This document shows positions 6,260 through 24,932 of a DNA stretch of 26,836 nucleotides, one piece after another. Both the position numbers and the translations under genes were made by a program. The stretch's first letter is position 1. Each line of letters begins with the position of its first letter. The notes beneath the pieces were generated by a model, which saw only the letters and a program-made list of their open reading frames with translations, was not told the origin of the DNA and did not search any database. The DNA comes from a virus: IMG/VR virus record IMGVR_UViG_3300010883_018640, positions 1 to 26,836 of that record; one strand, 5' to 3'.

Positions 6260-6287
6260 TTTCACAAAATCTCACTTTAAATGTAAC
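6260..6287 (+). promoter_or_regulatory. Phage promoter-like element P1 (portal)
   Basis: TTTCAC, 16 bp, TGTAAC. The downstream half ends 7 nt before the portal ATG at 6295. If the start point sits about 7 nt after this half, as for sigma70-type -10 boxes, the mRNA would be leaderless. Confidence 0.75.
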
Positions 6288-6294
6288 ATTTGTC

Positions 6295-8274
6295 ATGGGG
6301 AAAAATAATTACAAGGCAGACAATCTTTATTTCACTGACAGGCAGAAATATTACGAGCAGAAGGAATCTGCACCACAAAAGTCATTGGGATCTGACTTTT
6401 CTAATGAAGATTATAACAAGATGGTTGGATTCGCTGGTAGCGAATGGGTAAAGGGCGGTTTAGGTCGCAGAGGAGTAAAATCTTTAGGGATCAACACTCA
6501 ATTATCGAATAGGTTTCCCAATTTAACTGGTGGAGGAAATCTTTACAACAATAATGGAGGCTATGTTACAATTAATGAAACTGTATGGCTATGTCAAAAA
6601 GCTTGGCAGGAGTTCCAGCTATTTCGAAATACGATTGAAGCTATGGTAGAATTCTCTATGTCAAAAATTAAATTATCGTCCTCTAATAAGAGTGCTAAAA
6701 ATTTTTGCGAGACTTGGTTAAAAGCCATTAATATAAATGGGTTTGCGGAACAGTTTTATAGAGAATTGTATAGATCTTGCAATGTTTTTCCGTATGCAAT
6801 GAAAGGAAAGATCAATAGCAAAGATACTAAAAATCTAAAAATGTATGCGTCTAGTGCGGAAATACCAGTAAAATATACAGTTCTTAATCCAGCCCAAGTA
6901 AGTTTGTATGGGGGTTTAACAAGCGATAGAGACATTTATAAAGTTTTAAGTCCTTACGAAATTAAAAGATTGAAAAATCCTCAAACTCAAAGTGAGAAGA
7001 TTTTATATCAAAAATTAAGTCCAGAAATAAAACAAGCGATTAAAGATAGTTCTGAATTATCTTTAACATCTTCTATTTACGTTCCTCTTAAAGATGTGAG
7101 TTCCGCTTTTTATCAAAAACAAGATTACGAATATTTTGCAGTACCACTCTTTTATGGAGTACTAGATGACATTGAATTGAAGCTTGAAATGAAAAAGGCT
7201 GATAGAAAAGTTTTAAAGACTCTGGAAAATATGATTCTAAAAGTTACTATGGGGGGCTATAAAGTTGACGGTAATGAAGTTCCTCCCAATCCGGAGCATT
7301 TAGCTTATATGAGACAGCTTTTCAATAGTGAGGCAACTCAGAGAGTTCTCGTTGCAGATTACACCACTGAGGTTGATTATGTTATTCCAGATATTACCAA
7401 AGTTGTTGGAGCCGAAAAATATGCTCAGGTAAATGAGGATATTAGAGAAGGTTTACAGTCAATTTTTGGAAGCAACGAGAAGTTTTCCAATCAAATGACT
7501 AAGGTTAGGGTATTTTGCCAGAGACTTAAAAGGGGTCAGTCTATTTTTAAAGAATGGCTTGAGGGAGAAATTGGAAATGTTTGCAAAGAAATGGGGTACA
7601 CGAATGCTCCAACAGTAAAACTTTCTTCTATAAACCTTGAAGACCAAACACAAATGAACAGAGTTTATACTCGAATGGCTGAGTTGGGATTCTTAGTTCC
7701 AGAAGAGCTGAATACAGCAATTGAAGATGGTATTCTTCCAGAGAAGAATGAAAGTCTTAAAAATCAAAAAGAATATCGCAAATTGAAAAACGATAGTCTT
7801 TATGAGCCACAAATGAATTACAATCCAATAGATGAAGAAGCTGGTCCATCTAGTAAAACTAAAATAAAACAAGAAAAAGGAAGACCAGCTGGCAGTGGGG
7901 TTCCGATTAGTGGACCTAGACAAAGTAGAGTCGTTGGTGGTATTGAAGGTATCTCACTAAAGGAAATACAGTCTTGCCTAACGGAGATGGATAAAATCAA
8001 AGAAAACGCCATTAAAAAACTTAAGGGTAGTTACAACGTTAAGAAGCTTACAGACTCTCAAGTTGATTTTGCCAATTCAATCGCAAAAAAGGTTGTAGAA
8101 AATTATAATAAAGCGGACTGGGAAAAGGCGGTTGCCTCTATCATCAAAAGCAAGTCAATTGATGAAAACCCAAAAATGCAAGAAGAGATTGATAAGATTT
8201 GTGATGATTTTGAATTAGACACCTTTCTAGGAGCTTTAGTTTGGCATTCTAGAAGGGACGCACCGAGCGATTAA
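6295..8274 (+). CDS. Portal protein
   Basis: 659 aa. Portal proteins form the dodecameric ring at one capsid vertex through which DNA enters and leaves, and which binds terminase and neck proteins. Support comes from position (first of the head genes, directly before the protease) and from portal-like segments. One is the N-terminal wing region QLFRNTIEAMVEFSMSKIKL (about residues 110-130). Another is the long helical stretch with YEYFAVPLFYGVLDDIELK and then RKVLKTLENMILKVTMGG (about residues 280-320). After about residue 500 there is a charged tail with KGRPAGSGVP, an AT-hook-like GRP core, and a helical C-terminus. ATG at 6295 has no Shine-Dalgarno and lies 7 nt after promoter element P1. 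Arginine is mostly AGA/AGG, unlike the capsid gene. Confidence 0.85.
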   Translation: MGKNNYKADNLYFTDRQKYYEQKESAPQKSLGSDFSNEDYNKMVGFAGSEWVKGGLGRRGVKSLGINTQLSNRFPNLTGGGNLYNNNGGYVTINETVWLCQKAWQEFQLFRNTIEAMVEFSMSKIKLSSSNKSAKNFCETWLKAININGFAEQFYRELYRSCNVFPYAMKGKINSKDTKNLKMYASSAEIPVKYTVLNPAQVSLYGGLTSDRDIYKVLSPYEIKRLKNPQTQSEKILYQKLSPEIKQAIKDSSELSLTSSIYVPLKDVSSAFYQKQDYEYFAVPLFYGVLDDIELKLEMKKADRKVLKTLENMILKVTMGGYKVDGNEVPPNPEHLAYMRQLFNSEATQRVLVADYTTEVDYVIPDITKVVGAEKYAQVNEDIREGLQSIFGSNEKFSNQMTKVRVFCQRLKRGQSIFKEWLEGEIGNVCKEMGYTNAPTVKLSSINLEDQTQMNRVYTRMAELGFLVPEELNTAIEDGILPEKNESLKNQKEYRKLKNDSLYEPQMNYNPIDEEAGPSSKTKIKQEKGRPAGSGVPISGPRQSRVVGGIEGISLKEIQSCLTEMDKIKENAIKKLKGSYNVKKLTDSQVDFANSIAKKVVENYNKADWEKAVASIIKSKSIDENPKMQEEIDKICDDFELDTFLGALVWHSRRDAPSD

Positions 8275-8302
8275 TTTCACTAAAGCAAACAAAAATTGTA
8301 AT
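8275..8302 (+). promoter_or_regulatory. Phage promoter-like element P2 (protease-scaffold)
   Basis: TTTCAC, 16 bp, TGTAAT. The upstream half starts at the base directly after the portal stop codon TAA (8272-8274). The downstream half ends 19 nt before ATG 8322. Confidence 0.8.
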
Positions 8303-8321
8303 CTTTAGAGATAGCCTAGTA

Positions 8322-10190
8322 ATGAATAAAGATCAAATTAAAAAAGATTATCCATTTTCCACGAAAATAATTGCGGAATATCAAGTTGTTCATCCTAAAG
8401 AAAGAGACGAACATCTGGCACTGGCATCTTTGGATTCTCTAAAAGCATTGCTTGATGTACCTAAAGAACAAATAGAGATGAATAGAGATCTTCTTTACAT
8501 TTCTGCTGATTTATGGGTAGGAGGAATGGCTAATAAAAATGGACATGCAATAACGACTGAAGACACAATAGCACTAGCCAAGCAGATTCCTCACAAATAT
8601 TTAAACCTTGAACACGACGAAGATGTTGTTGTTGGTTCCCTTTTCTCTTATGGATTCAGAGAATATGCAAATGAAAGAAATTTGATTTCAGAAGAAGATA
8701 TCGAAGATTTAAACAAGCCTATAGTTGCTTCTGGTGGAGGTTTTGTTTGGCGTAGTATCAAACCAGAGTTGGCTGAGTTACTTGTAGAAGCTTCTGATAA
8801 AAATTCTTTGAAATATGGTCAAGCATCATTCAGTTGGGAAGTTTATTTTAAAGAATTCTCGATAATGGAAGGTTCAAAATTTGTTGATCAAGCAGAAATA
8901 ATTGATGATGAATCTGAAATAGAGAAGCGTCTTCCGTTTTTAAAAGATAATGGAGGCTCTGGAGAATATGAGGGCAAAGAGATCTACCGTCTAGTTAAAG
9001 GCCCGAAGCTATTTTTAGGAGCTGGCATAGTGGGTAATCCTGCCGCTGATGTTAAAGGCATACTTACTACTGAAACAAAAGAGGATGTAGAAACTAAATT
9101 AGAAGCCAACGACAATAGCTCTAAAGTTTCCAAAACAGTAGAGAAGTCTTTGCAAACCAAACTTACAGATCATAAGGAAAAAGTTGGCTCGGACAAGCGC
9201 AAACAAACTACTCTTGGAAAACTTAAGATAGTTTACAATCGTGGTATTGGAGCTTATAATACTAACCCATCTAGCGTTAGACCTACTGTTAGTTCTCCAC
9301 AACAATGGGCTCAAGCGAGAGTAAACTCATTTTTACACGTACTAAGAAATCTTAAATTTAGAAGTGGTAAACATGATACCGACCTTCTACCCACTTCACA
9401 CCCTATGGCAGGGAAAGATAAGAAGAAGGCAAAAATTTCACAATCAAAAAAAATAAATGTAAAGAAATATACAGCTATGAAAATTAAAAATCAAGAAGAT
9501 TATAAAACTGTATTGGCTTCTGTTTGCGAAAGCGAAGAAGTTGATCATAAACTCCTTGCCTCTCTTGAAGCAAATTTCGATAAAGTGACTGCTTCTGCAA
9601 TTGCTGATGCGATCCGTGATGAGAGTGCCAAGTTCGCTACCGAGAAAAAAGAACTCGAAGAAGCTAAAACAATGGCCGCAGAAGAAAAAGCTAAAATTGA
9701 AGCAGAACTTACAGAGCTCAAGGAGAAATCCGAAGCTTCTGACAAAGAACTGGAAGAGATCAAAGCCAAACTTGTTGCGGAAGAACAAAGTCGCATTTTC
9801 AGCGAACGCATGGAAGCACTAGAAAAAGATTATGATCTTGAAGCTGATGACTCTAAAGTCATTGCTAAACAAATAAAAGGTCTTGATGAAGGTGGTTACG
9901 ATGCTTGGCTCGGAGATTTCAAAGTTTTTGCCAAAGAAAAGTCTAAAGACTACAAAATGAAAAAAGCTGAAGAAATGAAGAAACAAGAAGAAGAAGAAGC
10001 TGTAAAAGCCAAAGCTTCAACTGAAGAAACTGAAGAGCAAAAAGAATCTCGTGAAAAGGAAGACGCTGAAAAGCTTATCGCATCTGCACAAGAAGATGTA
10101 AAGCAAGAAGTAGCATCGACCCAACATGAAGAAAAAGTTTCACTTGAAGACCAGTTCAGCAACTTTGAATTGGAGCTTGAAGGAAAATAA
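8322..10190 (+). CDS. Prohead protease fused to capsid scaffold, with an inserted domain
   Basis: 622 aa in three parts. (1) Residues about 55-250 are a capsid-maturation serine protease: the probable catalytic His is H98 in NLEHDED, the probable nucleophile Ser is S171 in QASFSWEV, and the end is GAGIVGNPAADVKGIL. (2) Residues about 297-361 are an inserted basic domain, KIVYNRGIGAYNTNP, then QQWAQARVNSFL and KHDTDLL, not needed for either protease or scaffold. (3) Residues 386-622 are a charged, Ala/Glu/Lys-rich coiled-coil scaffold (ELEEAKTMAAEEKAKIEAEL and following). Fusion of protease and scaffold is known in phages. The scaffold would shape the prohead, then be cleaved. The gene sits between portal and decoration protein. 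An internal promoter-like element and in-frame ATG lie at the part 2/3 border. The catalytic residues are assigned by eye. Confidence 0.82.
   Translation: MNKDQIKKDYPFSTKIIAEYQVVHPKERDEHLALASLDSLKALLDVPKEQIEMNRDLLYISADLWVGGMANKNGHAITTEDTIALAKQIPHKYLNLEHDEDVVVGSLFSYGFREYANERNLISEEDIEDLNKPIVASGGGFVWRSIKPELAELLVEASDKNSLKYGQASFSWEVYFKEFSIMEGSKFVDQAEIIDDESEIEKRLPFLKDNGGSGEYEGKEIYRLVKGPKLFLGAGIVGNPAADVKGILTTETKEDVETKLEANDNSSKVSKTVEKSLQTKLTDHKEKVGSDKRKQTTLGKLKIVYNRGIGAYNTNPSSVRPTVSSPQQWAQARVNSFLHVLRNLKFRSGKHDTDLLPTSHPMAGKDKKKAKISQSKKINVKKYTAMKIKNQEDYKTVLASVCESEEVDHKLLASLEANFDKVTASAIADAIRDESAKFATEKKELEEAKTMAAEEKAKIEAELTELKEKSEASDKELEEIKAKLVAEEQSRIFSERMEALEKDYDLEADDSKVIAKQIKGLDEGGYDAWLGDFKVFAKEKSKDYKMKKAEEMKKQEEEEAVKAKASTEETEEQKESREKEDAEKLIASAQEDVKQEVASTQHEEKVSLEDQFSNFELELEGK
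9436..9463 (+). promoter_or_regulatory. Internal phage promoter-like element (nested scaffold)
   Basis: TTTCAC, 16 bp, TGTAAA, inside the coding sequence of the protease-scaffold gene. It has the same spacing as every intergenic copy. It ends 13 nt before an in-frame ATG at 9477. The encoded residues (KISQSKKINVKKY) form a low-complexity linker between domains. Confidence 0.7.
9477..10190 (+). CDS. Nested scaffold protein from an internal start (predicted)
   Basis: An ATG at codon 386 of the protease-scaffold gene is in frame and would give a 237-aa protein starting MKIKNQEDYKTVLASVCESE. It contains exactly the coiled-coil scaffold: heptad-like Glu/Lys/Ala segments (residues about 45-130 of the short form), an acidic and lysine-rich middle, and the C-terminus LEDQFSNFELELEGK. 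The ATG lies 13 nt after a full copy of the phage promoter-like element, within the 7-32 nt distance seen for the other copies. Lambda Nu3 made from within gene C is the known precedent. It would allow many scaffold copies per protease. No clear Shine-Dalgarno precedes it. The product is inferred from sequence only. Confidence 0.6.
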   Translation: MKIKNQEDYKTVLASVCESEEVDHKLLASLEANFDKVTASAIADAIRDESAKFATEKKELEEAKTMAAEEKAKIEAELTELKEKSEASDKELEEIKAKLVAEEQSRIFSERMEALEKDYDLEADDSKVIAKQIKGLDEGGYDAWLGDFKVFAKEKSKDYKMKKAEEMKKQEEEEAVKAKASTEETEEQKESREKEDAEKLIASAQEDVKQEVASTQHEEKVSLEDQFSNFELELEGK

Positions 10191-10218
10191 TTTCACATCG
10201 TAAAACAATTATTGTAAT
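10191..10218 (+). promoter_or_regulatory. Phage promoter-like element P3 (decoration + major capsid)
   Basis: TTTCAC, 16 bp, TGTAAT, followed by AACATC. It starts right after the TAA stop of the scaffold gene (10188-10190) and ends 21 nt before ATG 10240. It heads a two-gene unit closed by the terminator at 12010. Confidence 0.8.
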
Positions 10219-10239
10219 AACATCTAACTAACTAAAATT

Positions 10240-10812
10240 ATGGCATACAAAGATTTAAAACTAAAACCATCTCGTAATATTGCTCCGCACGACATTCGTT
10301 CGCATCTAAGAGCAGAATTTACTGGTGTAGCTGGTGATCTTGTCAAGGTTAAAACTTTTGACCCAGACAACGACAACTACTACGCCCAAGGTCAATCAGT
10401 GGGCGCTTCTCATGACGGCGTCTACTCTAATAAATTCCAATCTCCTTGGACTGTTGAAAAAGCTGTCAGCGGAGATTTCGCTGGTAGCATTCTAGGTATC
10501 ACACTAGAAGGAACTGCAGTAACAGACGATCACGGAAACCAAATCGACGGCTTCAACCAACGTTGGGCTGACGAAAATGGCTTCGTTGCTTCTGGCAAAC
10601 CAGTCCAAATCGCTACTCGCGGTAACTTCTGGGTTTCTAACAGCTGTATCGCTGGTAACCCTCAGCCTGGCTCTGGTCTTGCAGCTAATGCTGATGGTGG
10701 ATTCAGAGTTGTACTTCCGGGTGACGCTGCTGCTGATGGAACGCTTGTAGCTAAAGTTCTTTCTTCCGCTGGAACTCGCCAAGGCGATGTTAACATCGAA
10801 CTAACCCTCTAA
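10240..10812 (+). CDS. Probable capsid decoration / head stabilisation protein
   Basis: 190 aa. No family is recognised with certainty. It is Gly/Ala/Asp-rich with beta-type patterns (GDLVKVKTFDPDNDNYYAQG, GKPVQIATRGNFWVSNS) and no obvious membrane or coiled-coil part. Its place between the scaffold and the major capsid gene, in the same promoter-to-terminator unit, is where lambda-D-like decoration proteins are commonly encoded. Codon use is shifted to C-ending and CGY arginine codons, as in the capsid gene, which suggests high expression. It lies 20 nt before the capsid ATG. The decoration role is inferred from position and codon bias. Confidence 0.6.
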   Translation: MAYKDLKLKPSRNIAPHDIRSHLRAEFTGVAGDLVKVKTFDPDNDNYYAQGQSVGASHDGVYSNKFQSPWTVEKAVSGDFAGSILGITLEGTAVTDDHGNQIDGFNQRWADENGFVASGKPVQIATRGNFWVSNSCIAGNPQPGSGLAANADGGFRVVLPGDAAADGTLVAKVLSSAGTRQGDVNIELTL

Positions 10813-10832
10813 TCAGAAACGGAATTATTTAT

Positions 10833-11984
10833 ATGAAAATTAAATTAAAAGAAAAAACTGAACATATCGAACTTATCAAAGCTATGGGATCTCGTGACAA
10901 CGAAGCATCTCGTGATGCAATGAGAGTATTCGCTAGTCTTGTCGGTCCTCTTGCTAAGAAAGTACTTGATGAAACAAACGTAATCGACGGTTTCTACGAC
11001 ACTCTTTCTGTTGGTGAGTATGAGCCTCGTACTATCCCTCTTGATGACTATCATAACATTTCTGAAGCAGATTATGTTCGTGTATCGTTCTCAAGCCGCC
11101 CAGGAGATCTTGCTTACAACCAACTTACTGGTGCAGACGACGTTGCTTTCAGCACTGCTTTCATTAGTTCCGCAATTGCGTTCTATAAGAAGTATCTTAA
11201 AGCTGGTCGTATCAGCCACGCAGAGAACGGTATCCGCAAGCTTATCAACGAAGTTCGCTTCAAGATGAAACGCCAAGGCATCCAGCCTATCCTAGATTCA
11301 CTTGCAAATTCGACAACTAACGGTGGTAAACACCTTATCCGTTCGAACACAGCAGGTCAACTTGGACTTGATGACTTTAACCGTCTTCAAACAATGGCTG
11401 CTCGTGTCTTAAGTTCTGGTCTTGGTGATACACCAGCAGGTCTCGACAATAGCACTCGTGCTATCGATACTCTGGTAATGTCTCCTGAAATGGTCGAAGA
11501 GATTCGTGCAATTGCTTATCAGCCAATGAATACTCGCGCTGGTACTGAAACGACTAGTGGTGCAACAGCAGTTTCTGCTCCTGAAAGCGTTCGTGAAGCA
11601 GTCTATGCTGCTGGCGGTCTTCCTTCAATCTACGGAACTGAAATTATTCAGCTTAACGAAATGGGCCTTGGACAAGACTTCAATACCATCTTCGATACTC
11701 TTGCTGGTAATACTGAGTTCCCTGATATTGGTGAAAAATTCGACTCTAGCACAACCAGTGTATTTGCTGGTGGAAGTGAACAGTTCGTTCTAGGCATCTC
11801 TCGTAAGATTGATGTTAACGGTCTTCTTAAGGTTGAAATCGCAGACGGTGAAACTGGTGCAAACTTCAATGTTTCTCCTGACGATCAGTTTGTTGCTCGT
11901 GAGGGCAAGACTGGCATGTTCGGTGAAGCTGAAGTTGGTTACCTTGCAGTAGAGCCTCGCAATCTGTTCGGTCTTATCGTCTAA
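10833..11984 (+). CDS. Major capsid protein
   Basis: 383 aa. It is the expected size for an HK97-fold shell protein and lies directly after portal, protease-scaffold and decoration genes. The N-terminus is a charged helix (MKIKLKEKTEHIELIKAMGS). There follows an extended segment, SVGEYEPRTIPLDDYHN, and a typical capsid-like middle with IDTLVMSPEMVEEIRAIAYQ and GGLPSIYGTEII. The C-terminus VGYLAVEPRNLFGLIV is a strand-rich end. Arginine codons are nearly all CGT/CGC, in contrast to the AGA-rich portal, as expected for the most abundant virion protein. ATG has no Shine-Dalgarno; upstream is AATTATTTAT. A strong terminator follows 26 nt after the stop. No separate delta domain can be delimited because scaffold is supplied elsewhere. 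Confidence 0.85.
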   Translation: MKIKLKEKTEHIELIKAMGSRDNEASRDAMRVFASLVGPLAKKVLDETNVIDGFYDTLSVGEYEPRTIPLDDYHNISEADYVRVSFSSRPGDLAYNQLTGADDVAFSTAFISSAIAFYKKYLKAGRISHAENGIRKLINEVRFKMKRQGIQPILDSLANSTTNGGKHLIRSNTAGQLGLDDFNRLQTMAARVLSSGLGDTPAGLDNSTRAIDTLVMSPEMVEEIRAIAYQPMNTRAGTETTSGATAVSAPESVREAVYAAGGLPSIYGTEIIQLNEMGLGQDFNTIFDTLAGNTEFPDIGEKFDSSTTSVFAGGSEQFVLGISRKIDVNGLLKVEIADGETGANFNVSPDDQFVAREGKTGMFGEAEVGYLAVEPRNLFGLIV

Positions 11985-12009
11985 TCGATATCCAAAGTAT
12001 TTACAAAAG

Positions 12010-12034
12010 CCCACTCTTCGGAGTGGGTTTTTTT
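12010..12034 (+). terminator. Rho-independent terminator after major capsid gene
   Basis: Stem CCCACTC / GAGTGGG closed by a TTCG tetraloop, then a run of seven T. It ends the decoration-capsid unit and is followed 32 bp later by element P4. Confidence 0.93.
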
Positions 12035-12066
12035 ATTGTCTATTTACGAGGAATGAGGTGGATAAA

Positions 12067-12094
12067 TTTCACTAAAAGGCGTTTTAACTGTAAA
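12067..12094 (+). promoter_or_regulatory. Phage promoter-like element P4
   Basis: TTTCAC, 16 bp, TGTAAA. It lies between the capsid terminator and ATG 12114, ending 19 nt before it. It would restart transcription after the terminator. Confidence 0.75.
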
Positions 12095-12113
12095 CAGCGG
12101 TGAAAGTAAAATT

Positions 12114-12434
12114 ATGAAAATAAATGGAAGAATAGGAAATGACCAGCTTAATAAAGCTCTGGGGAATAAACAGGCAGTTTTAGGTTGCTCTGGAGCAGTA
12201 GATTACGCATGTAAGATCGCCAAAATGGACGTAGATTCGTTATACAGACATGGTATGTCTCAATATGGTATAAGGCCTAATAATCGTACAAAAGGCCGTC
12301 CAAGCTTCGAGAAGCGCTGTGTAGACGCTTTTAGAAAAGAAATGGGTCAAAAGATTACACAGGCTGGAGAGAGAAAAAAAATGACCAAGAAAAAACAAGG
12401 GGAATTAGAAAAAATCTTAGCTAAGGGTAAATAA
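12114..12434 (+). CDS. Small basic protein of unknown function
   Basis: 106 aa and strongly basic, especially at the end (GERKKMTKKKQGELEKILAKGK). I do not recognise the family. The central part (SGAVDYACKIAKMDVDSLYRHGMSQYGIRP) is helical and could be a helix-turn-helix-like fold, and NRTKGRPSF has a GRP core like an AT-hook. A nucleic-acid-binding role is therefore possible. It sits after the capsid terminator under element P4 and 8 nt before the next gene, with which it forms a two-gene unit. A structural or packaging-linked role is equally possible. Confidence 0.7.
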   Translation: MKINGRIGNDQLNKALGNKQAVLGCSGAVDYACKIAKMDVDSLYRHGMSQYGIRPNNRTKGRPSFEKRCVDAFRKEMGQKITQAGERKKMTKKKQGELEKILAKGK

Positions 12435-12442
12435 AAAACTTT

Positions 12443-13069
12443 ATGGCAAAAATAACCTTTTTAAATGAAGATCTTTACGAACGAGTAAAGAAAGAGGCTG
12501 ATAGAAAATTCAACAAGAATTCCTATGTTAAGCATATGTGGGTTCTTAAAGAGTATGAAAAGCGGGGAGGTAAAACCAATAAAGAAGGTAAGAAGCCTAG
12601 CAACAAGCAGGTTAAAAAATTAGTAAAGGGTTATGAAATTGATTTAGACCTTTATGAATTTGAAGTCGCGGCAGACAGGGATTATAGCAATTACTGTGAA
12701 GAATTTGGCTTAGAAGTTGAAAAAATTATTGCAGAAGACAATAAAGATAAGATTGACGAAGTTTACAGCAAATACAAAAGCACTGTAAATATGGGTTATA
12801 GCTCTTTGAAGAAATGGTCAGAAAGTCCATGCAGCAAAACTGCTAGTCTATCTCGCGGGCCAATTGAAAGGAATTTGAGATTACTATCTAAAAAGAAGAG
12901 TGAGTGGACTATGAGCGACGTTAAATCCGCAAACAGGACAATAAGTTTTGTATCTCGCATGAAGGGAATGGAACAGGGCAAAAAAACTAATATCAAAAAA
13001 GATGGACGACAAATTACTTGTCCTTCTAAAAGGGACGTTAGTTTAATGAATTGGGCGTATAGACCATAA
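12443..13069 (+). CDS. Basic protein with a conserved-looking C-terminal module, function unknown
   Basis: 208 aa and lysine-rich. The N-terminal half is helical (NEDLYERVKKEADRKF, SYVKHMWVLKEYEKRGGKT). The C-terminal half has a distinctive motif series: YSSLKKWSESPCSKTASLS, RNLRLLSKKKSEWTMSDV, ANRTISFVSRMKGMEQG and SKRDVSLMNWAYRP. From memory, such serial motifs occur in uncharacterised proteins of other large phages and viruses; I cannot confirm this here. The high charge suggests DNA contact. It follows the 106-aa gene by 8 nt and is probably co-transcribed from P4. Possible roles are a head-associated DNA-binding or injected protein; none is established. Confidence 0.72.
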   Translation: MAKITFLNEDLYERVKKEADRKFNKNSYVKHMWVLKEYEKRGGKTNKEGKKPSNKQVKKLVKGYEIDLDLYEFEVAADRDYSNYCEEFGLEVEKIIAEDNKDKIDEVYSKYKSTVNMGYSSLKKWSESPCSKTASLSRGPIERNLRLLSKKKSEWTMSDVKSANRTISFVSRMKGMEQGKKTNIKKDGRQITCPSKRDVSLMNWAYRP

Positions 13070-13105
13070 ATCATTACCGAATTATAAAAAAGTAAATATA
13101 AGAAG

Positions 13106-13133
13106 GTTCTCCATTTTTGCCTTTTTGTGTAAT
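13106..13133 (+). promoter_or_regulatory. Phage promoter-like element P5
   Basis: GTTCTC, 16 bp, TGTAAT, then AATAAAC and ATG. It ends 7 nt before ATG 13141. It would lie inside the gene if the upstream ATG at 13117 were used, so it decides the start. Confidence 0.72.
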
Positions 13134-13140
13134 AATAAAC

Positions 13141-13596
13141 ATGGCACAATTTCAACCAATTTCAGGCTTGGCCTATGAAATACATCAAGAACTGGACGCA
13201 CCAGCTACTCCCACAACTGGTAGTATTTTTTATTGGTTAGAATCAAACGTCGGAAAATTAAATAATAAAATTTCAACCTTCTATTGTTACGAATCTGGCG
13301 ACTATTACCCACAACTTGGAGACGACGAAAAGGGTATTTTAAAAGCTATATATTACGGATTTTATTATAAAAACAAAGCTAGAACTGCTTTGATGTCAAC
13401 TAGCAATAATAACATTTTATCTCTTAGAGACGATCAATCTTCTGTTACCTTTGTTCAGCCTAAACAGGTGGCTCGTGCCTATAGCGATTTGGCTAAAGAG
13501 TCAGATGTGGAAGCTGATAATTTAGCAAATTTGTGGAAACACAATAGGAGCGGACCAAGAGATACAAGGCAGAGCTGGACTGGACATTGGCAATAA
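13141..13596 (+). CDS. Probable head-tail connector protein
   Basis: 151 aa starting MAQFQPISGLAYEIHQEL. The ATG at 13141 is preferred over an ATG 24 nt earlier, because the earlier one would place promoter element P5 inside the coding sequence. Helical segments (SIFYWLESNVGKLNNKIS; GILKAIYYGFYYKNKARTAL) and the C-terminal QVARAYSDLAKESDVEADNL fit a small helical adaptor of the gp6/gp15 connector kind that docks on the portal. Its place after the head genes and before the tail tube supports this. The stop TAA overlaps the next ATG by one base, so the two are translationally coupled. The family assignment is tentative. Confidence 0.65.
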   Translation: MAQFQPISGLAYEIHQELDAPATPTTGSIFYWLESNVGKLNNKISTFYCYESGDYYPQLGDDEKGILKAIYYGFYYKNKARTALMSTSNNNILSLRDDQSSVTFVQPKQVARAYSDLAKESDVEADNLANLWKHNRSGPRDTRQSWTGHWQ

Positions 13597-14055: not shown

Positions 14056-14083
14056 GTTCTCTGGAGGAATGCTTTTGTGTAAT
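14056..14083 (+). promoter_or_regulatory. Phage promoter-like element P6
   Basis: GTTCTC, 16 bp, TGTAAT, then AATATCT and ATG. The spacing to ATG 14091 is 7 nt, the same as P5, and the flanking TGTAATAATA is shared with P5. It begins 4 nt after the preceding TAG stop. Confidence 0.75.
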
Positions 14084-15524: not shown

Positions 15525-15552
15525 TTTCTCATTTAATAAAAAAATTTGTAAT
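15525..15552 (+). promoter_or_regulatory. Phage promoter-like element P7 (tail tube)
   Basis: TTTCTC, 16 bp, TGTAAT. It starts at the base after the TGA stop (15522-15524). It ends 32 nt before ATG 15585, the longest leader of the set. Confidence 0.76.
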
Positions 15553-16658: not shown

Positions 16659-16690
16659 TAATTAAAGATCTATTAAAATATATTATTAAA

Positions 16691-16719
16691 TCCCACTGGA
16701 AACGGTGGGATTTTTTTTT
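16691..16719 (+). terminator. Rho-independent terminator after tail tube gene
   Basis: Stem TCCCAC / GTGGGA (extended by AAA/TTT) around an 8-nt loop, then nine T. The T-run overlaps the first bases of element P8, so terminator and next promoter are fused. Confidence 0.9.
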
Positions 16720-16744
16720 CACTTTGTTTTGTATTTAATGTAAT
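16717..16744 (+). promoter_or_regulatory. Phage promoter-like element P8 (tape measure)
   Basis: TTTCAC, 16 bp, TGTAAT, then AATAACTAGGTT and ATG. The TTT of the upstream half is the end of the terminator T-run. It ends 12 nt before ATG 16757. Confidence 0.78.
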
Positions 16745-16756: not shown

Positions 16757-19700
16757 ATGGCTCAAAGCGACTTAGACATTATAGTAGGAGCGGATACGCG
16801 GAATTTAAATCGGAACGTAAATACCGCTGTCCGCAAACTCGAACGTAAAGGCGTTAATTTAGACACTAAAAAGGGTCAGATGGCCTTGGGTCGTATTACG
16901 GGGAAGGCTGATGAGTTTACTAAGTCTCTAGAAGCTTCTAATGCCCGTGTTATTGCGTTCGGAGCGTCTGTTGCAGTTATTGAGGGAGTAAGAAGATCTT
17001 TCACAAAGCTAGTAAGTACAATCGTAGAGGTTGAATCGCAGCTTACAGCTATTAATAGTATTTTGGGTCAATCAAGCGGTACAATTTCAAAGTTTGGAAA
17101 TGAATTATTTGATATTGCGAAAAAAACTGGACAATCTTTTCAAACGGTAGCACAAACTGCTCAAGAATTTGCTCGTCAGGGTTTGGCGGTGGGAGAAACA
17201 TTGAAACGTACTGAAGATTCCCTAATTCTGGTCCGATTAACAACTTTAAAAACTAACGAAGCAGTTGCCGCAATTACGGCAACCCTGAATGGCTTCGCGA
17301 AAGAAGCTCTGACGTCAACTGAAGTTATCAACAAACTTCGTGCTGTTGAAACATCTTTCGCCGTTTCTTCGGATGATTTAGCAGCTGCGCTGGCTCGTTC
17401 TGCTGCTGTAGCTCAGGGTGCTGGAGTTTCATTTAATGAGTTACTGGGTGTTATTACGGCCATGAAGCAGAGAACTGGTCTTGGTGGCGCAACCTTGGGT
17501 CAAGGCCTTAAGACTGCTTTTACTAGACTGAGCTTACCGAATCGTATAGCAGAATTAAAAGACTTAAAAGTTGCAATTGATGATAACTCAAGCGGAATGG
17601 AAAAATTGCGTCAAGTCTCAATTGCTTATAAAGCGGCTCAAGATGCAGGTAATCAATCTTTAGCTGCTCAAATTGGTCAAGTGGCTGCTGGCGGGTTTCA
17701 AATTTCTAAGTTAATCTCCGCATTTCAAGATTTGTCTAGTGCGTATAGTGTCGCTGATAGTGCAGCTTTAAAATCAGGTGAGGCTACCAATGAAGCTAAT
17801 AAGGCAAACGAAGAGTATAACCAAACTATTGGGGGAATAAGCAAACAAATTAATTCCAATATTGGAAAAATTTTTAACAGCGTTGGAGCATTGGGGACTG
17901 GTGACGCAATTAAAGATCTTGTTGGGAACATAAATTCTATTTTAGAAGCTTTTCAAGGAAACAAACTTGGTGCGTCTAATGCATTCATTGGTCTTTTAAA
18001 TGATGCTATTATAGGAGCCAAGAATTTCGGCTTTTTACGTGATGCCGCAGAAGGCTTCGCGAAGGTTTTAAGTGGACCTGGACTTGTTGCTGCTGCTGCA
18101 GTTGTTAAAAATCTATTTGCTAACACATTGGTTCAAGGCGGTGCTTCTCTACTTTCATTAACTGGACTTAACAAAGGACAAAAAAATAGAGAACAAACTC
18201 AAACCGCTACTGTAGCTTTATTAAAACAAGGTACGGAAGAAGAGAAAAAGCAGTTTGCTTTAGCTACTTCGCAAGCACAAAAAGAACAAGTTATTCTTGG
18301 TATTTTAGAAAGACAACTTGCCATTCAAAAAGCTCAAGAAAGATCCGAAGTTAGATTTTCAGAACACTTAAGAAAGAGGGGATTAATTATATCAGGTAGC
18401 GCTGGAGGATATAATATAAAGCGTTCAACCAAGGCTATCGCGCTTAATCGTGGAGTGTCTAATAACGCGGGCGGAACAATTCCAGAAGCAATTATTAGAG
18501 AACAAAATGCTATTGGTAGAAATGTAGGAGGTGCTACATCGAAAGCGCAAGCAAGGGTTATTGAAAAATTTAATTATGGCAGAGGAAAAAAAGGTCCAGC
18601 AGTTGTAAATAGTGAAGAGCTTATCATACCTAATAAGTCTGGGGACATCGTTTTAAATAAAGAAATGATGAAGGGCGGTATGATGAATAAGAGCACGTTT
18701 AATTATGCTGCAGGAAGCAAGAGAGAAATCGCTATAAAAGGCAAACTAGAAAACGGGTTACCCTTGACCGTTAAGGATAAAGAATGGCTACGAAAGAATG
18801 CTGGTACCAATCCAGGAGGGGCTTCAAGTAGAAATCAGAACAAAATTTTACCCGCTACGGCTAGTGCTATTATTAAAAGAGGGGGAAATAGTATTTATGC
18901 CGATAATACTATTGGATCTGTTAGAACAAACAGATTTAAAGAAAGGTCTCAGGGAGTAAATCCAGTAGGCAGACCAACTGCCAAAGAAGCTACCAAAAGA
19001 AACCTAATAAATAAAGGAGCTTCAGGAGCTTTTGAAAACCTTAGAAGTTCAAGTTTCATTGGACCACCTAGGGGTTCTCCAACTGGAGCCGATAATTTTG
19101 GTGAGTTTGCAAGGAGACAAGATAGTCTTGATAATGCCGACCGTATAGCTCAAGAAAGAGAAGCCAAGAAACGGCGAGCACTTGAAGCGCAAAAGATAAG
19201 AGAGCAGGAACTACGAAGAGAGAAAGCTCTGCAGCGACGTGACATAGAAGAAGACGTAAGGAGACAAGATCAGACAAGTCGATTCCAAGGCGCAACTCCA
19301 GTAAATGCAAATACTAGGTTCTCGCAAGCAGACAGATCGATGGTATTAAATGATGAATATCGATCAGAGTTAAAAACGCAGATGGGAAGAAGGGGGATGA
19401 GCATGAAAGATTTGAATAGTACCCCAGAAGGCAAAAAGCTTAGACAACAAGTTAGAACCGCTGTTAAAACTTCTGTTGGTAATAGATTTTTTGAAATAGA
19501 CCAACAAATAGCCGAACAACAAGTTAAGGGAGCTCAAGCAGCAATAGATAAACAAAGCCGTAAAGGAATAGGAGGGAGATTAGGTATGCCGAGTTTCAGA
19601 GGTATAGAAAAACGTTTTGAGCAGGATAAGACTATGACACCTATGGCTAAGAAAATGATAAAAGCCGATATTTCAAATAGGAGATTCCAAAGAAACCAAG

Positions 19701-22700
19701 GAATTGCTCAAAGGGGATTTTTAGGCAGTATGGTTTTGAGTATGTCTGCTCCAACGATAGGTCGTGGCGCTGAATTCATAGCTGGAAAAGCGGGTCAAGA
19801 TGAAGATGCTGCTAAAAGAACTGGAAATATTTTCGAAGGCGCGGCGCAAGGAGCTTCGACGGGCATGTCCGCTGGATCATTGTTTGGACTGCCTGCAATG
19901 ATAGCTGGGACTGTAGGAGGCGCTATACTTGGAGGTGTTTCATCTGCAGGAAAAAAGGAGTCACCCTCAGATATATTAGCCGCACAATTTGACAAGCTTC
20001 AAGAAACAAATGCAAACAGCGCCAATGCGATTAAATCTTTTTTACAGTCTCAATCTCTAATTTCGGACTTAATATCTTCTGGAGATCTTGATCAGCAGAA
20101 AATATTAGGTATAGAAGACGCAACAAACAAAACTTTAAGAGAGTCGGGTTTAACATCCGAACAAATTGAAAAATTGACATCTGCGACCTCGAACGATAGG
20201 GGCGATGTAGCCGTGGAATTGCAGAGACAGTTAAATTCGCAAACATTTGAGGCTAAAAATAGGCTTGACGTAACAAAAATACTCGAAGATACAACGGGTA
20301 GTCGAGTTGTTCAAACTGATTTTAGCAGAAATCGTGAAAAAATGATAATGAATTTAGCCAGAAACGGCCAAGGCCAAGGGGCGAGTGGTCTTTCTATGCT
20401 TGAGGGCTTCGACAAACTTCTGTCGAAGATGGGAATGAGTAGCAACAGTTTTATTGTAGAGGACGATCCTTTCTCTGACATATCCGAAGATCAAAAAAAG
20501 GAACTAAAAAACATAAATTTAAGTAATGTTGATTTTAGTGCAATGGATCAAGCTATGAAGAATTCTGGTGATTCTATAGGTGAATTCTCAAAATCTATAT
20601 CCGAAGGACTCAGTTCCGGCCGTTTTGGCGGGATACAAAAAGCGTTAATGCGTTTGGGAATTGACATAGACGATTTGCCTTCTGCGATTAGAGAATCATC
20701 TGATGCACTACACGAATACGGTAATATTATAAGCGAAAGTTTTAAATCTGGAGGTGGATTCCAAGACATGGCAAACCGAAGGTCGATGACAAGAACAAGG
20801 GTAGGGTTGGGAATTAATAGTGCTGCGTTTGGTAGGGCGCAAATGGAGAACTTTAATGTACAAAGAAGTATAAACAATGCAAGCTCATTCAGGGATCAAT
20901 TATCTGGCCCAACCGAAATAAACAGAGAAAGAAGTGCTCTATTAATGTCTGGTAGCAGATTCGGACTAACAGGCTCAGGAAGGGATGATAATTTTAATAA
21001 GATACAAGCATTAAAAGTTAAGGAAGAAGAGGTCTTAACTGGAACAAACAAAAATAAAATTTTTGACGACACCATTGGGGGAATAGACGAACTCATAAAC
21101 CCTATAGTTACTTCTGGCACTAGTTTTGATGAAGAGAAATTGACCCCAGTTCTAGCGAAAATGGCAACAGGAATTTCTAGCCTAGAAGAGCTCAATAATA
21201 TAAGAACCGAACTAAAAAACATTTTCTCTGGGACCGAGGGTGTAGAAACAACACTGAACAGTTTAGTATTATCAGCTGCCGAGAGTCTTGAACTTGAAAA
21301 AATAGCGTCGAATGATAGAAGGGAAAACATAAACATTTCTAACAACCAAGAAGCTATTCTTAGGAAGTTAAGAACAGACCAATCCGTAAGATCTCAACAA
21401 GGATCTGAAATGGGAATGAGCGTGTCAGAAGTGATGGGCAGAGATGATCCAACTATCGCTGGTAAAGTTAGAGCTCAAGGAGAATATACAAGTACAAAGG
21501 GAGTTAAGAAAGTATTGACAAATGAGGCTGGAGAAATTAGAGAGGGTTTTGTTGCTGCCTTGGAAGAGAAAGACGAAGACGGAAAATTTAAAATAGATAG
21601 ATTTACGCAAGCAAGTATGTTATCTGAATTTGACAGAAATATAAAAAATACTGGAACGGAGGTTGACGAGAACGGACAATTTAAATTCAATAAATATGAT
21701 GTTGCTGGAAGAGCTAACGAAGCTATTAGACGCATGGGAGAAGGGCAATATGGCTCACGAATGGAAACTGCTGGATTTGGAGTCTTAACAAACGAAATAA
21801 CCAGCAGGGGCAAAACTAATGACGCCTTAATTGCAAGTACTCCATCGAGCGTAAGAGAAGCATTTACAGAACGAAAAGATGTCGTAAACAGGGATGCTGG
21901 TTTGAGTGGATTGGTAGTCCCCCAAAACAAAGAACAGGCAAGGTTACGAGACCAATATATCAAAGAATATTCCAGAATACAAAACAATAACAATCTTGGG
22001 CGTTACGATGGACCTAAGAGTTTTCATACTAAAAGTGGCATGGAGACAACAGAAAGGCATCAAATAGACCAAAGTGCCATTTTCAACAATCCCTTTAAAA
22101 ACGCATATAGCGAACGAGGAATGTTTAATCATGGAACTGAGATGTATGACCAAATATTTAACTCATCTGTCTTGGAATCTGGAGATTTTGATATTAAGAG
22201 TGGAATGCCATTAGACTTCAATAAGAATAACGCACGTCTTGGATATGGCGCAGCAAGTATGGCACCCGTCGGCGTCGATCTCGACGATCCAAGGGAAAAT
22301 TATATGTTCTCACAGAGTCAGGGAAAATCAGATAATGCAGCGTTCCGATCAATGATGGGACTTCCTAATTTAATCGAAGGTGGAGATGCTAACGCTTATC
22401 AGTATGGAACAGACAGTGCTGTTAAAGATACTAAGCCAGCACCTGAAGAAACCACAAATCCCTTAATAGAAGAACTTAAGAAAACTAATACAGCGTTATC
22501 GGCGCTTGCAGAGTCAAAAAATAATACCGACTTTCTGACAGAAATTTTAAGGTCTTTAGAACAAGGGAAGTCAGATAAAACTATAACTGGTGACGAGATG
22601 GGTACAGCAATAAAAGCGATAGACGATTTTAAATCATCAGATAAGACGCAAGGTGATAGGGGAAATCTTGAAGCAGTTATACAAAAACTTGTTGAAAATC

Positions 22701-22978
22701 AAGAAATTACATTTAGTGAGCTTTTAGAGCAAATTAAACAAGACAAGCAAAACAGTAACGTTGAACAACTTGCAGATCTGAATCAAAATATTGCCACATT
22801 CATTACCACTCTAAACGAAGGTGTAGAAAGTAAGGTGGAGACATTTAATAATTTTACATTATCTTTTGATGGAGTAGAAGAAAACTTTGCAAATACAGAG
22901 GCTATGATCGAATCAATGAGAACAAGGCTGGAGGGTTTAGAAGCCTCATTGAGAGGTGACGTTGTAGCACCTGCATAA
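16757..22978 (+). CDS. Tail tape measure protein
   Basis: 2073 aa, the longest gene in the window, placed directly after the tail tube. Residues about 60-340 are the conserved tape-measure core: helical, with SVAVIEGVRRSFTKLVSTIV, TLKTNEAVAAITATLNGFAK and GLGGATLGQGLKTAFTRLSL. About residue 610 has GPAVVNSEELIIPNKSGDIV. Residues about 780-840 are an Arg/Glu coiled coil (AQEREAKKRRALEAQKIREQ). Residues about 985-1065 are hydrophobic and glycine-rich (MVLSMSAPTI; LFGLPAMIAGTVGGAILGGV), a possible membrane-active segment. The C-terminal ~170 residues are helical. At about 0.15 nm per residue, the length would allow a tail up to roughly 300 nm, an upper estimate. The first ~300 residues use mainly CGN arginine codons, later parts mainly AGA/AGG. 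Confidence 0.92.
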   Translation: MAQSDLDIIVGADTRNLNRNVNTAVRKLERKGVNLDTKKGQMALGRITGKADEFTKSLEASNARVIAFGASVAVIEGVRRSFTKLVSTIVEVESQLTAINSILGQSSGTISKFGNELFDIAKKTGQSFQTVAQTAQEFARQGLAVGETLKRTEDSLILVRLTTLKTNEAVAAITATLNGFAKEALTSTEVINKLRAVETSFAVSSDDLAAALARSAAVAQGAGVSFNELLGVITAMKQRTGLGGATLGQGLKTAFTRLSLPNRIAELKDLKVAIDDNSSGMEKLRQVSIAYKAAQDAGNQSLAAQIGQVAAGGFQISKLISAFQDLSSAYSVADSAALKSGEATNEANKANEEYNQTIGGISKQINSNIGKIFNSVGALGTGDAIKDLVGNINSILEAFQGNKLGASNAFIGLLNDAIIGAKNFGFLRDAAEGFAKVLSGPGLVAAAAVVKNLFANTLVQGGASLLSLTGLNKGQKNREQTQTATVALLKQGTEEEKKQFALATSQAQKEQVILGILERQLAIQKAQERSEVRFSEHLRKRGLIISGSAGGYNIKRSTKAIALNRGVSNNAGGTIPEAIIREQNAIGRNVGGATSKAQARVIEKFNYGRGKKGPAVVNSEELIIPNKSGDIVLNKEMMKGGMMNKSTFNYAAGSKREIAIKGKLENGLPLTVKDKEWLRKNAGTNPGGASSRNQNKILPATASAIIKRGGNSIYADNTIGSVRTNRFKERSQGVNPVGRPTAKEATKRNLINKGASGAFENLRSSSFIGPPRGSPTGADNFGEFARRQDSLDNADRIAQEREAKKRRALEAQKIREQELRREKALQRRDIEEDVRRQDQTSRFQGATPVNANTRFSQADRSMVLNDEYRSELKTQMGRRGMSMKDLNSTPEGKKLRQQVRTAVKTSVGNRFFEIDQQIAEQQVKGAQAAIDKQSRKGIGGRLGMPSFRGIEKRFEQDKTMTPMAKKMIKADISNRRFQRNQGIAQRGFLGSMVLSMSAPTIGRGAEFIAGKAGQDEDAAKRTGNIFEGAAQGASTGMSAGSLFGLPAMIAGTVGGAILGGVSSAGKKESPSDILAAQFDKLQETNANSANAIKSFLQSQSLISDLISSGDLDQQKILGIEDATNKTLRESGLTSEQIEKLTSATSNDRGDVAVELQRQLNSQTFEAKNRLDVTKILEDTTGSRVVQTDFSRNREKMIMNLARNGQGQGASGLSMLEGFDKLLSKMGMSSNSFIVEDDPFSDISEDQKKELKNINLSNVDFSAMDQAMKNSGDSIGEFSKSISEGLSSGRFGGIQKALMRLGIDIDDLPSAIRESSDALHEYGNIISESFKSGGGFQDMANRRSMTRTRVGLGINSAAFGRAQMENFNVQRSINNASSFRDQLSGPTEINRERSALLMSGSRFGLTGSGRDDNFNKIQALKVKEEEVLTGTNKNKIFDDTIGGIDELINPIVTSGTSFDEEKLTPVLAKMATGISSLEELNNIRTELKNIFSGTEGVETTLNSLVLSAAESLELEKIASNDRRENINISNNQEAILRKLRTDQSVRSQQGSEMGMSVSEVMGRDDPTIAGKVRAQGEYTSTKGVKKVLTNEAGEIREGFVAALEEKDEDGKFKIDRFTQASMLSEFDRNIKNTGTEVDENGQFKFNKYDVAGRANEAIRRMGEGQYGSRMETAGFGVLTNEITSRGKTNDALIASTPSSVREAFTERKDVVNRDAGLSGLVVPQNKEQARLRDQYIKEYSRIQNNNNLGRYDGPKSFHTKSGMETTERHQIDQSAIFNNPFKNAYSERGMFNHGTEMYDQIFNSSVLESGDFDIKSGMPLDFNKNNARLGYGAASMAPVGVDLDDPRENYMFSQSQGKSDNAAFRSMMGLPNLIEGGDANAYQYGTDSAVKDTKPAPEETTNPLIEELKKTNTALSALAESKNNTDFLTEILRSLEQGKSDKTITGDEMGTAIKAIDDFKSSDKTQGDRGNLEAVIQKLVENQEITFSELLEQIKQDKQNSNVEQLADLNQNIATFITTLNEGVESKVETFNNFTLSFDGVEENFANTEAMIESMRTRLEGLEASLRGDVVAPA

Positions 22979-23006
22979 TTTCTCATTTTACCCTTTTAAA
23001 TGTAAT
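22979..23006 (+). promoter_or_regulatory. Phage promoter-like element P9
   Basis: TTTCTC, 16 bp, TGTAAT. It begins at the base after the tape-measure TAA stop (22976-22978) and ends 19 nt before ATG 23026. A GGAGG Shine-Dalgarno lies between element and ATG, so this transcript has a normal leader. Confidence 0.8.
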
Positions 23007-23025
23007 ACTACCTTGGAGGCAAGGT

Positions 23026-23244
23026 ATGGAAGAAAAGGATTATTTATATTTCAATTTTTTGGGCAAACGGTGTATCAAATACATGTTTAAACAATATTTG
23101 TATCATTTAGAAGATTTACTTGATAAAAAGTGCATTTCTAATGATGATTATGAAGAGGCAAGACAGAGAATTCTAGATGTTGGCAATGATCAAGCTAGGT
23201 TTTTCGAAGATCAGGCTGAGAATTACTATAAAATCAATAGGTAA
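23026..23244 (+). CDS. Small protein after tape measure, function unknown
   Basis: 72 aa: MEEKDYLYFNFLGKRCIKYM, then a helical part with YLYHLEDLLDKKCISNDDYE and EEARQRILDVGNDQARFFED. I do not recognise it. It has the clearest Shine-Dalgarno of the window (GGAGG) and its own promoter-like element, so it is very likely a real gene despite its size. It lies 9 nt before the 256-aa gene and is probably co-transcribed with it. A small tail-assembly or tape-measure-associated factor is possible. Confidence 0.75.
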   Translation: MEEKDYLYFNFLGKRCIKYMFKQYLYHLEDLLDKKCISNDDYEEARQRILDVGNDQARFFEDQAENYYKINR

Positions 23245-23253
23245 GGGAAATTT

Positions 23254-24024
23254 ATGAAAAAATTATATACATTCAAGGGGAAAATAGGCGAAGAAACTTT
23301 TGATTTTGGTCTTAAAAAGCCAAATAGAAGCGAAATGGAAGATTTAGAAATCTTTCAAGCTGCGATTAAGTCGAAACTTATGAACATGGGCGTTCAAACA
23401 AAAGCGGCTGTTGATAAGTATTACATGGATAATTGCGACGGAGCGATGACAAAAGGTGATGAGTATGAAATTACCAAATTACGCCAACAGCTTGTAAGAA
23501 AAGAAGAAGATTTGCTAACTAGTACGGGCGATAAAAACAAAGATACTAGAATCAAATTATACGAAGAGATAAATAAGTTGTCAGATCAGATTAGAAATTT
23601 CAATGAATATTATTCGGCAATTTATGATGATACTGTTGAGACTAAAGCTCGCAACAAATCAATTGACTATGCTTTTTTAAACTTTTCTCTGATTGATGAA
23701 AAAGCTATGTTTGAATCAGATAATGAGCATCCACAAAAAAGAATGATTGAGCAGTTCCAGCATATGGAAGAAAAGCAAGATGGCGAAAATGGAGACGAAT
23801 GGTCTGAAATTTATAACAAACTAGTTTTTCTATTTACTTTGTGGTTTATGGGAATCGCTGACACCGAACAAGATTTCGAAGGATTTTATAAAGAAAATTT
23901 CGGTAAAAAAATTGAAACAGAAATTGAAGAAGAGGAAATAGAAAAAGAAGTAGTAGAGGAAGTCAAGGCGGAATCAGAAGAAAAAAAAGCTAAAAAGAAA
24001 GTAAAAAAAGATAGTAAGAAGTAA
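23254..24024 (+). CDS. Putative tail assembly protein (chaperone-like)
   Basis: 256 aa. The start MKKLYTFKGKIGEETFDFGL has a strand-like pattern, followed by helices (KKPNRSEMEDLEIFQAAIKS) and a coiled coil near residues 70-115. A hydrophobic helix LVFLFTLWFMGIADTEQ is near residue 195. The last ~40 residues are alternating acidic and lysine runs (IETEIEEEEIEKEVVEEV; KKAKKKVKKDSKK). Tail-assembly chaperones usually lie next to the tape measure gene and can be charged and helical, which is the basis for this guess. The TAA stop overlaps the next ATG by one base. A slippery A-run near the end was tested by eye and does not lead to a fusion. Role tentative. Confidence 0.62.
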   Translation: MKKLYTFKGKIGEETFDFGLKKPNRSEMEDLEIFQAAIKSKLMNMGVQTKAAVDKYYMDNCDGAMTKGDEYEITKLRQQLVRKEEDLLTSTGDKNKDTRIKLYEEINKLSDQIRNFNEYYSAIYDDTVETKARNKSIDYAFLNFSLIDEKAMFESDNEHPQKRMIEQFQHMEEKQDGENGDEWSEIYNKLVFLFTLWFMGIADTEQDFEGFYKENFGKKIETEIEEEEIEKEVVEEVKAESEEKKAKKKVKKDSKK

Positions 24025-24923
24025 TGAACGAAGATTCTATTCTTCGAAGTGCGCTTTCGGAAATATTAAAAGGCTATTCTTATGATATTGAGAATAGCCT
24101 TTATATAAAACACATGTCTCTGGATGATCATGTAGATTACGAAAGAGTATATTCTTTTTTTTACGAAAGATTAAAAAAAAGAGGAGTAGAGACTTCTGAA
24201 AGTTTAATAGAAAGGGCTATTTCTCAAGATTTGTGGTCAGAGGAGAAGGAAAGCAAGATTAAAGATCTAGAAGAATTAAATGACCAACTAAAAAAAACTA
24301 TTCAGAAGTCACTGGCGGAAGACATGAAAAAACATGCAAAGAGTGAACTTGAAGCGAATGAAAAAGAATATCAGAATTTGTTGGATCAAAAATACTCAAT
24401 TACATCCAGCTCAATAGAAAAAATTACTGATAGAAGAATGCATGAACATTACATTGTGAATTCTTTATATTTAGACAGAGATCTTTCTCAAAAAAAGTTT
24501 AATGAAAAAGACTTTGATGAAATAGAGCCAGAAGAGTTATTTAAAATTAACAAAAGTTATACTAAATATACTGAAAAATTAAAAGAATCAAATATTAAAA
24601 GAATATCTATTAAACATTTTTTTCGAAGTTCTTGGGACCTATCAAAAAACACATATCAATATTTTGGAAAACCTATTAGTCAAATTACATATTTTCAAAC
24701 AAACTTGGCAACAAATGCAAATACATTTTCAAGTATTTTTAAAAACTATCCAGGTATTGAATCTGAAGATCCAGACGAGATAATTGAATTTGCACAAATG
24801 AGGTACGAAGCCGAAAAAAATACAGGCAAAAATAAAAGTTTTACAGGAGCTGATTCCGAAAAATTGAGAAGGGCTGGTATTCAAGTCGCTGACAGGTCTG
24901 CACAATTCAATAAGGTTCGATAA
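24024..24923 (+). CDS. Putative tail assembly protein, translationally coupled
   Basis: 299 aa, starting MNEDSILRSALSEILKGYSY with TAATG overlap to the previous gene. It is strongly helical: residues about 70-130 form a coiled coil (SKIKDLEELNDQLKKTIQKS and following), and the C-terminal part has FAQMRYEAEKNTGKNKSF and DSEKLRRAGIQVADRSAQF. No catalytic motif is visible. With its coupled partner it may form a tail-assembly chaperone pair, here placed after rather than before the tape measure, which would be an unusual order. Alternatively it may be a minor virion protein. Element P10 begins inside its last codons. Confidence 0.62.
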   Translation: MNEDSILRSALSEILKGYSYDIENSLYIKHMSLDDHVDYERVYSFFYERLKKRGVETSESLIERAISQDLWSEEKESKIKDLEELNDQLKKTIQKSLAEDMKKHAKSELEANEKEYQNLLDQKYSITSSSIEKITDRRMHEHYIVNSLYLDRDLSQKKFNEKDFDEIEPEELFKINKSYTKYTEKLKESNIKRISIKHFFRSSWDLSKNTYQYFGKPISQITYFQTNLATNANTFSSIFKNYPGIESEDPDEIIEFAQMRYEAEKNTGKNKSFTGADSEKLRRAGIQVADRSAQFNKVR

Positions 24924-24932
24924 AAGTGTAAT
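24905..24932 (+). promoter_or_regulatory. Phage promoter-like element P10 (weak upstream half)
   Basis: ATTCAA, 16 bp, TGTAAT, then AAATACCAAGGT and ATG. The upstream half is the least conserved of the set and lies in the end of the preceding gene. The spacing of 16 bp and the 12 nt to ATG match P8. Confidence 0.55.

Follow-up and report, generated by a model that had tools for sequence, protein, structure and literature searches.

Putative late promoters with a fixed 16-bp spacer and a candidate phage-encoded sigma factor in relatives of an uncultured marine phage

Salmonella phage 7-11 encodes a sigma factor with regions 2 and 4 (SaPh711_gp47), and its late promoters follow the pattern GTAAtg-(16)-aCTA, with transcription starting 6–9 bp from the −10 element (PMC8948821). 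The phiEco32 sigma factor gp36 lacks region 4, and its promoters carry a single element, tAATGTAtA, without a −35 box; starts lie 6–8 bp downstream (PMC8948821). Late transcription in T4, driven by gp55/gp33, likewise uses no −35 element and depends on a split, clamp-activated sigma factor (PMC2988020). Here we analyze a 26.8-kb viral fragment (IMG/VR record IMGVR_UViG_3300010883_018640, positions 1–26,836; hereafter the window), which we read as part of an uncultured marine phage and in which a bipartite element, KTTCWC-N16-TGTAA, recurs in front of structural genes. The evidence throughout is comparative sequence. The portal-like gene of the window led to 24 relatives in IMG/VR, with identities from 100% down to 30%; the close relatives compared were G006 (141.7 kb) and G004 (46 kb), whose portals are 87–90% identical to that of the window. 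BLAST searches of the window DNA and of the portal against GenBank phages gave no match.

Among known promoter systems, that of phage 7-11 appears to be the closest, and the mechanism is probably the same. Both combine a phage sigma factor, in our case a candidate with region 2 and a putative region 4, with bipartite late promoters having a 16-bp gap and early genes assigned to host sigma70. The window system differs in its consensus, its sigma family, its density of about one promoter per transcription unit, a cysteine-rich insert in the sigma-like protein, very short leaders and a conserved copy inside a gene, and we would place it among phage-sigma late promoters but not within the 7-11 family. 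With phiEco32, where middle and late promoters are concerned, it shares the probable use of a phage sigma factor, although the phiEco32 element is single and the present one bipartite. Dispersed late promoters and a small candidate partner protein recall T4 (a Zn-ribbon protein of 105–147 amino acids (aa) here, gp33 of 112 aa in T4); no homology between the Zn-ribbon protein and gp33 was seen.

The window holds ten perfect copies of KTTCWC-N16-TGTAA, all on the plus strand and none on the minus strand, against a mean of 0.14 and a maximum of 1 on both strands in 100 dinucleotide shuffles; the reversed pattern has no match in the window. An initial annotation of the same DNA had listed eleven copies, estimated fewer than about one chance match per strand and placed each copy 7–32 nt before an ATG. 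Its coordinates proved exact, and its range is borne out by the measured ATG distances, counted from the final base of TGTAAN (7, 19, 13, 21, 19, 7, 7, 32, 12, 19 and, for the eleventh copy, 12 nt, in site order). Four elements start on the first base after the preceding stop codon. The claim that the copies precede structural units holds for most sites but not for the one at 9436, which lies inside an open reading frame (ORF, 8322–10190), and the eleventh copy, ATTCAA-N16-TGTAAT (24905–24932, plus strand), is a weak candidate: it is a two-mismatch match overlapping the end of ORF 24024–24923, with a matrix score of 10.7 versus 16.8–20.2 for the other ten. Its sequence is kept in the orthologous DNA of G004 and G006, overlapping coding sequence there too. 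Matching with two mismatches yielded no excess in the window (45 versus 38 expected), so a site is there in full or not at all, and looser matrices are unhelpful.

All ten sites occupy orthologous places in the window, G006 and G004, and the mismatch per site-pair among the three is 0.011 in the −35 hexamer and 0.000 in the −10 hexamer, compared with 0.167 in the spacer, 0.292 upstream and 0.248 downstream. At the level of sequence, the elements are thus a promoter-like signal whose hexamers are under strong purifying selection. When the two halves of the matrix were split and the gap varied from 10 to 22, matches at gene starts were enriched at gap 16 alone (9/12 in the window, 16/31 in G006 and 10/17 in G004; 0–2 at other gaps). 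Seventeen forward matches in G006 reach a score of at least 13, nearly all of them at called gene starts and one being the in-gene site; across close relatives and shuffles, high scores fell at gene starts and not in coding interiors or shuffled sequence. An antisense site near position 26108 of G006 (minus strand), common to G001 and G004, was left uncounted because it lies inside an opposite-strand gene and points at no gene start. Lineages whose sigma-like proteins are 31–47% identical to the one discussed below retain TTCAC-N16-TGTAA, at some orthologous genes. The portal promoter of the window (TTTCAC-N16-TGTAAC, 6260–6287, plus strand, ATG 7 nt downstream) has a counterpart at the 33%-identical portal of the distant lineage G025, namely GTTCAC-N16-TGTAAT followed by 7 nt and ATG. 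The elements are best read as late promoters with −35 and −10 boxes at fixed spacing, and the original promoter proposal gains support from gene-start placement, hexamer conservation and the finding that the phage group encodes a sigma-like protein.

Two further observations concern the elements themselves. In the spacer of the portal promoter (window 6266–6281 and its orthologues in G008 and G025) an inner TCAC is retained across lineages: aaatctcactttaaa / aaagtcacattaaa / aaagtcacttcga. In G006, and also in G001, a divergent pair of late promoters stands back to back with abutting −35 boxes (G006 35877, minus strand, and 35878, plus strand).

The sigma-like gene, which the initial annotation had suggested looking for, is present in the same phage group, outside the window. 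In contig G002, all ten window sites are unchanged, the portal protein is 100% identical and the sigma-like gene precedes the portal by about 22 kb. The Pfam sigma70 region 2 was matched in 7 of 12 related records (above the cut-off in three), and PF04542 (Sigma70_r2) in 14/14 sigma homologues at E 0.1; the clade-1 protein exceeds the curated cut-off (25.1 versus 24 bits). The protein has 220–260 aa (231 aa for the copy at L068:1039–1734, minus strand) and consists of region 2, a Cys-rich insert with invariant cysteines 84, 87, 96 and 108, and a C-terminal segment, GYxTNE(K/E)NRxxGY, that resembles a region-4 helix-turn-helix; the model has helices at 169–180, 185–192 and 205–225. Eight of the 14 homologues match PHROG 1740, "RNA polymerase sigma factor". 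A PDB profile search returned extracytoplasmic function (ECF) sigma factors (E 0.0013), while Foldseek placed the model next to sigma-H (prob 0.99), its PDB relatives being mostly ECF sigmas. The likeness to ECF sigmas such as SigH and RpoE/SigW covers the two-domain layout and the best PDB matches; the present protein differs in having a Cys-rich insert that separates the two domains, and the promoters of ECF sigmas carry other consensus sequences. A search for region 4 by PF04545 gave no real match in the sigma-like protein, and tblastn of two distant homologues against INPHARED/GenBank phages gave none at E 0.01 and so showed no relation to gp47 or gp36, no profile comparison with gp47 itself having been made. 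In every lineage looked at, a small Zn-ribbon gene directly precedes the sigma-like gene and often overlaps its start codon (L068:1734–2066, minus strand; L070:1175–1492; L067:1722–2066, minus strand; and others); its product is possibly a sigma partner or an anti-sigma factor. In G006 and G014, a gene assigned by sequence reading to a PhoH-like ATPase lies just upstream of this operon.

The genes expected to act first carry a different promoter class. Many small early-type genes at about 92–114 kb of G006 (plus strand) are preceded, 4–12 nt before the ATG, by TTGAC(A/T)-N16-(C/T)A...T; written more fully as TTGAC(A/T)-N16-(C/T)AT(T/A)(A/C)T, the element stands 6–9 nt before the ATG. Gap 16 accounts for 18 sites at gene starts in G006 and any other gap for at most 6. 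Such sites occur also in G008 and G011, and the window has none. The Zn-ribbon–sigma operon is preceded by TTGAA(A/T)-N16-(T/G)AT(T/A)AT in 6/6 distinct clade-1 loci, not by the late motif, and in several distant lineages a TATAAT-like box lies closely before the Zn-ribbon ATG. This distribution suggests that transcription would pass from a host sigma to the phage sigma factor in a cascade.

Three other promoter types were considered for the late sites and rejected. Host sigma70 promoters would read TTGACA / TATAAT, whereas the window sites read TTC(A/T)C / TGTAAN; a sigma70 consensus scan of the window stayed at chance level (60 versus 53.5). The housekeeping promoter consensus of Bacteroidota is TTTG / TAnnTTTG, and TAnnTTTG occurs at 0 window gene starts, with a total near chance. 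The T4-type late promoter consists of a −10 element only, TATAAATA; here the −35 box is fixed in close relatives and the −10 is TGTAAN.

The −10 box often ends 7–8 nt before the ATG, with 7 nt at 6260, 13106, 14056 and many sites of G006. A start usually lies 6–8 nt after the −10, so that sites with 7 nt would give mRNAs with no leader or almost none, and transcription would probably begin at the ATG or a few bases before it; the remaining sites would leave leaders of roughly 5–25 nt. Shine-Dalgarno-like sequences are rare in G006 (19/205 genes). Bacterial genes with a TA-like box some 10–12 bp ahead of the start codon are taken to be leaderless (PMC3160421). In G006 (L033 5548–5627), an ATG lies 7 nt after the fusion-gene promoter and starts a frame of 9 codons ahead of the annotated start, which may be a short upstream reading frame.

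The in-gene site (9436–9463, plus strand) lies in the linker of the protease-scaffold ORF, with an in-frame ATG at 9477, 13 nt downstream. It is retained in the same phase in 12/12 relatives examined (about seven divergent lineages), and an in-frame ATG follows it by 13–40 nt in the window and all 12. Among seven lineage representatives, TGTAAA and TTC.C are kept in 7/7, and most flanking and spacer positions in 3–5/7. The protease part has invariant H98, S169 and S171, and Foldseek of its model ranked the T4 gp21 prohead protease first (5jbl, prob 0.98), followed by herpesvirus assemblins, a modest match (E 0.015) from a model with a pLDDT (predicted local distance difference test) of 63.6; a sequence-profile search of PDB with the domain was uninformative. 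Charged residues make up 46% of the C-terminal 237 aa, which resemble a scaffold. The nested promoter may let the predicted scaffold (9477–10190), which would begin MKIKNQEDYK, be made apart from the protease.

We propose that the early genes and the Zn-ribbon–sigma operon would be transcribed first, from host-sigma70-type promoters (TTGAC-N16-TATAAT-like), and that host core RNA polymerase carrying the phage-encoded sigma would then activate the dispersed structural units, one to four genes apiece, from (N)TTC(A/T)C and TGTAA(T/A/C) boxes at a fixed 16-bp spacing. Region 2 would melt the DNA and read the −10 box, and the C-terminal helix-turn-helix the −35 box, making the phage protein the likely reader of the late motif; the promoter at 9436 would add a second, shorter, scaffold-only mRNA and with it an excess of scaffold over protease. 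Taken as a whole, we consider this explanation highly probable. Several points weigh against it: many orthologous genes of the 51% clade and of more distant relatives have TGTAAT without the −35 box, implying that the −35 is optional or that another factor helps; the PhoH gene of G006 likewise has TGTAAT without a −35; region 4 (PF08281, r4_2) was found in 2/14 homologues; and the Foldseek and Pfam matches of the sigma are of limited strength (for the model, pLDDT 73 and pTM (predicted template modeling score) 0.38; best Foldseek E 1.4e-3). With region 4 weakly recognized in the phage protein, a host alternative sigma might read the promoters while the phage protein does something else. We judge this improbable, for the motif is found across the phage sigma lineage, across 31–47% sigma identity and a genomic GC (guanine–cytosine) content of 35 to 47%, and hosts probably differ across lineages: the metagenome-assembled genome labels of distant sigma homologues disagree (Flavobacteriales/Flavobacteriaceae, Verrucomicrobiales, unclassified). 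A marginally smaller chance falls to a phage activator that would bind these sites over weak promoters for host sigma, the arrangement of T4 middle and N4 late transcription. The departure of the −35 box from TTGACA, the constant Zn-ribbon neighbor of the sigma gene and the copies retaining TGTAAT alone would suit such an activator; the single rigid spacing, the sigma-like gene and the difference between this −10 and the TATAAT-type −10 of the early genes would not. That the elements act in RNA, as a processing or translation signal, is very improbable despite their tight fit between stop codon and ATG, four of them directly abutting the stop: they consist of two separate hexamers in −10/−35 geometry around a drifting spacer, a divergent back-to-back pair exists in relatives, and two copies stand immediately after terminator-like hairpins, which suggests that transcription has to start anew inside the structural region.

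For the nested copy, the object of selection might instead be the peptide encoded by the linker, S-(Q/H)-x-x-x-x-(N/x)-V-(K/N), which a protease might cleave, for example, because the codon phase is identical in all lineages and Ser and Val are hence fixed. Synonymous third positions are fixed as well, however (the T before GTA and the A of GTA), conservation is poor in the remainder of the linker, and the DNA fits the motif used elsewhere, again with a gap of 16 bp; we regard the peptide explanation as unlikely, if somewhat less so than any of the preceding ones, and prefer an internal promoter.

A protease-scaffold fusion accompanied by an in-frame scaffold has parallels in herpesvirus UL26/UL26.5 and in C/Nu3 of phage lambda, where the scaffold is nested. 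In herpes simplex virus 1, the scaffold VP22a is identical to the last 329 residues of UL26 (PMC12474303). Unlike in those systems, the promoter driving the separate product predicted here would be one more copy of the late sigma promoter that the phage uses elsewhere. No published account of the motif or the sigma was found in the open-access literature. We give about even chances to the broader picture of an undescribed marine phage lineage that would run its late program through a Cys-insert sigma and a Zn-ribbon partner, with many leaderless late mRNAs and a lineage-wide in-gene promoter setting the scaffold-to-protease ratio in parallel to UL26.5. The analysis offers a promoter code and a probable reader for phages whose portal and sigma matched nothing among the GenBank phages searched, so that their early/late program could be predicted from metagenomic data. 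Conserved over deep divergence, the nested promoter is a candidate for transcriptional control of scaffold dosage within a protease-scaffold gene, comparable with herpesviruses, and the sigma could be tested in vitro with short synthetic promoters, without phage culture.

The features around the sites, all on the plus strand, are arranged as follows. The portal-like gene (6295–8274, 659 aa) has no family match and owes its assignment to its place among the genes and the character of its sequence; right after its stop codon begins the predicted late promoter (8275–8302) of the protease-scaffold fusion ORF (8322–10190, 622 aa), which contains DUF5824. The promoter at 10191–10218 would serve a capsid cement-like protein (10240–10812; sub-threshold PF22758 match) and a conserved 383-aa gene (10833–11984), by position the probable major capsid protein. 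An intrinsic-terminator-like hairpin between transcription units (12005–12032) precedes the promoter at 12067–12094, upstream of genes for 106 and 208 aa. Two GTTCTC promoters, each with an ATG 7 nt downstream, lie before genes for 151 and 154 aa (13106–13133) and for 191 and 284 aa (14056–14083), and a TTTCTC promoter before a 357-aa gene (15525–15552). A second terminator-like hairpin (16688–16713) abuts the promoter (16717–16744) of the tape measure gene (16757–22978, 2073 aa), which is followed by a TTTCTC promoter (22979–23006) for the 72-aa to 299-aa genes.

On the minus strand, positions 1–5753 of the window hold four adjacent tail-fibre-like genes with a common N-terminal module, ISELT...D(F/V)(I/L)P(I/V)VD. 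Three of the four have BspA-type leucine-rich repeats, and they look like tandem duplicates.

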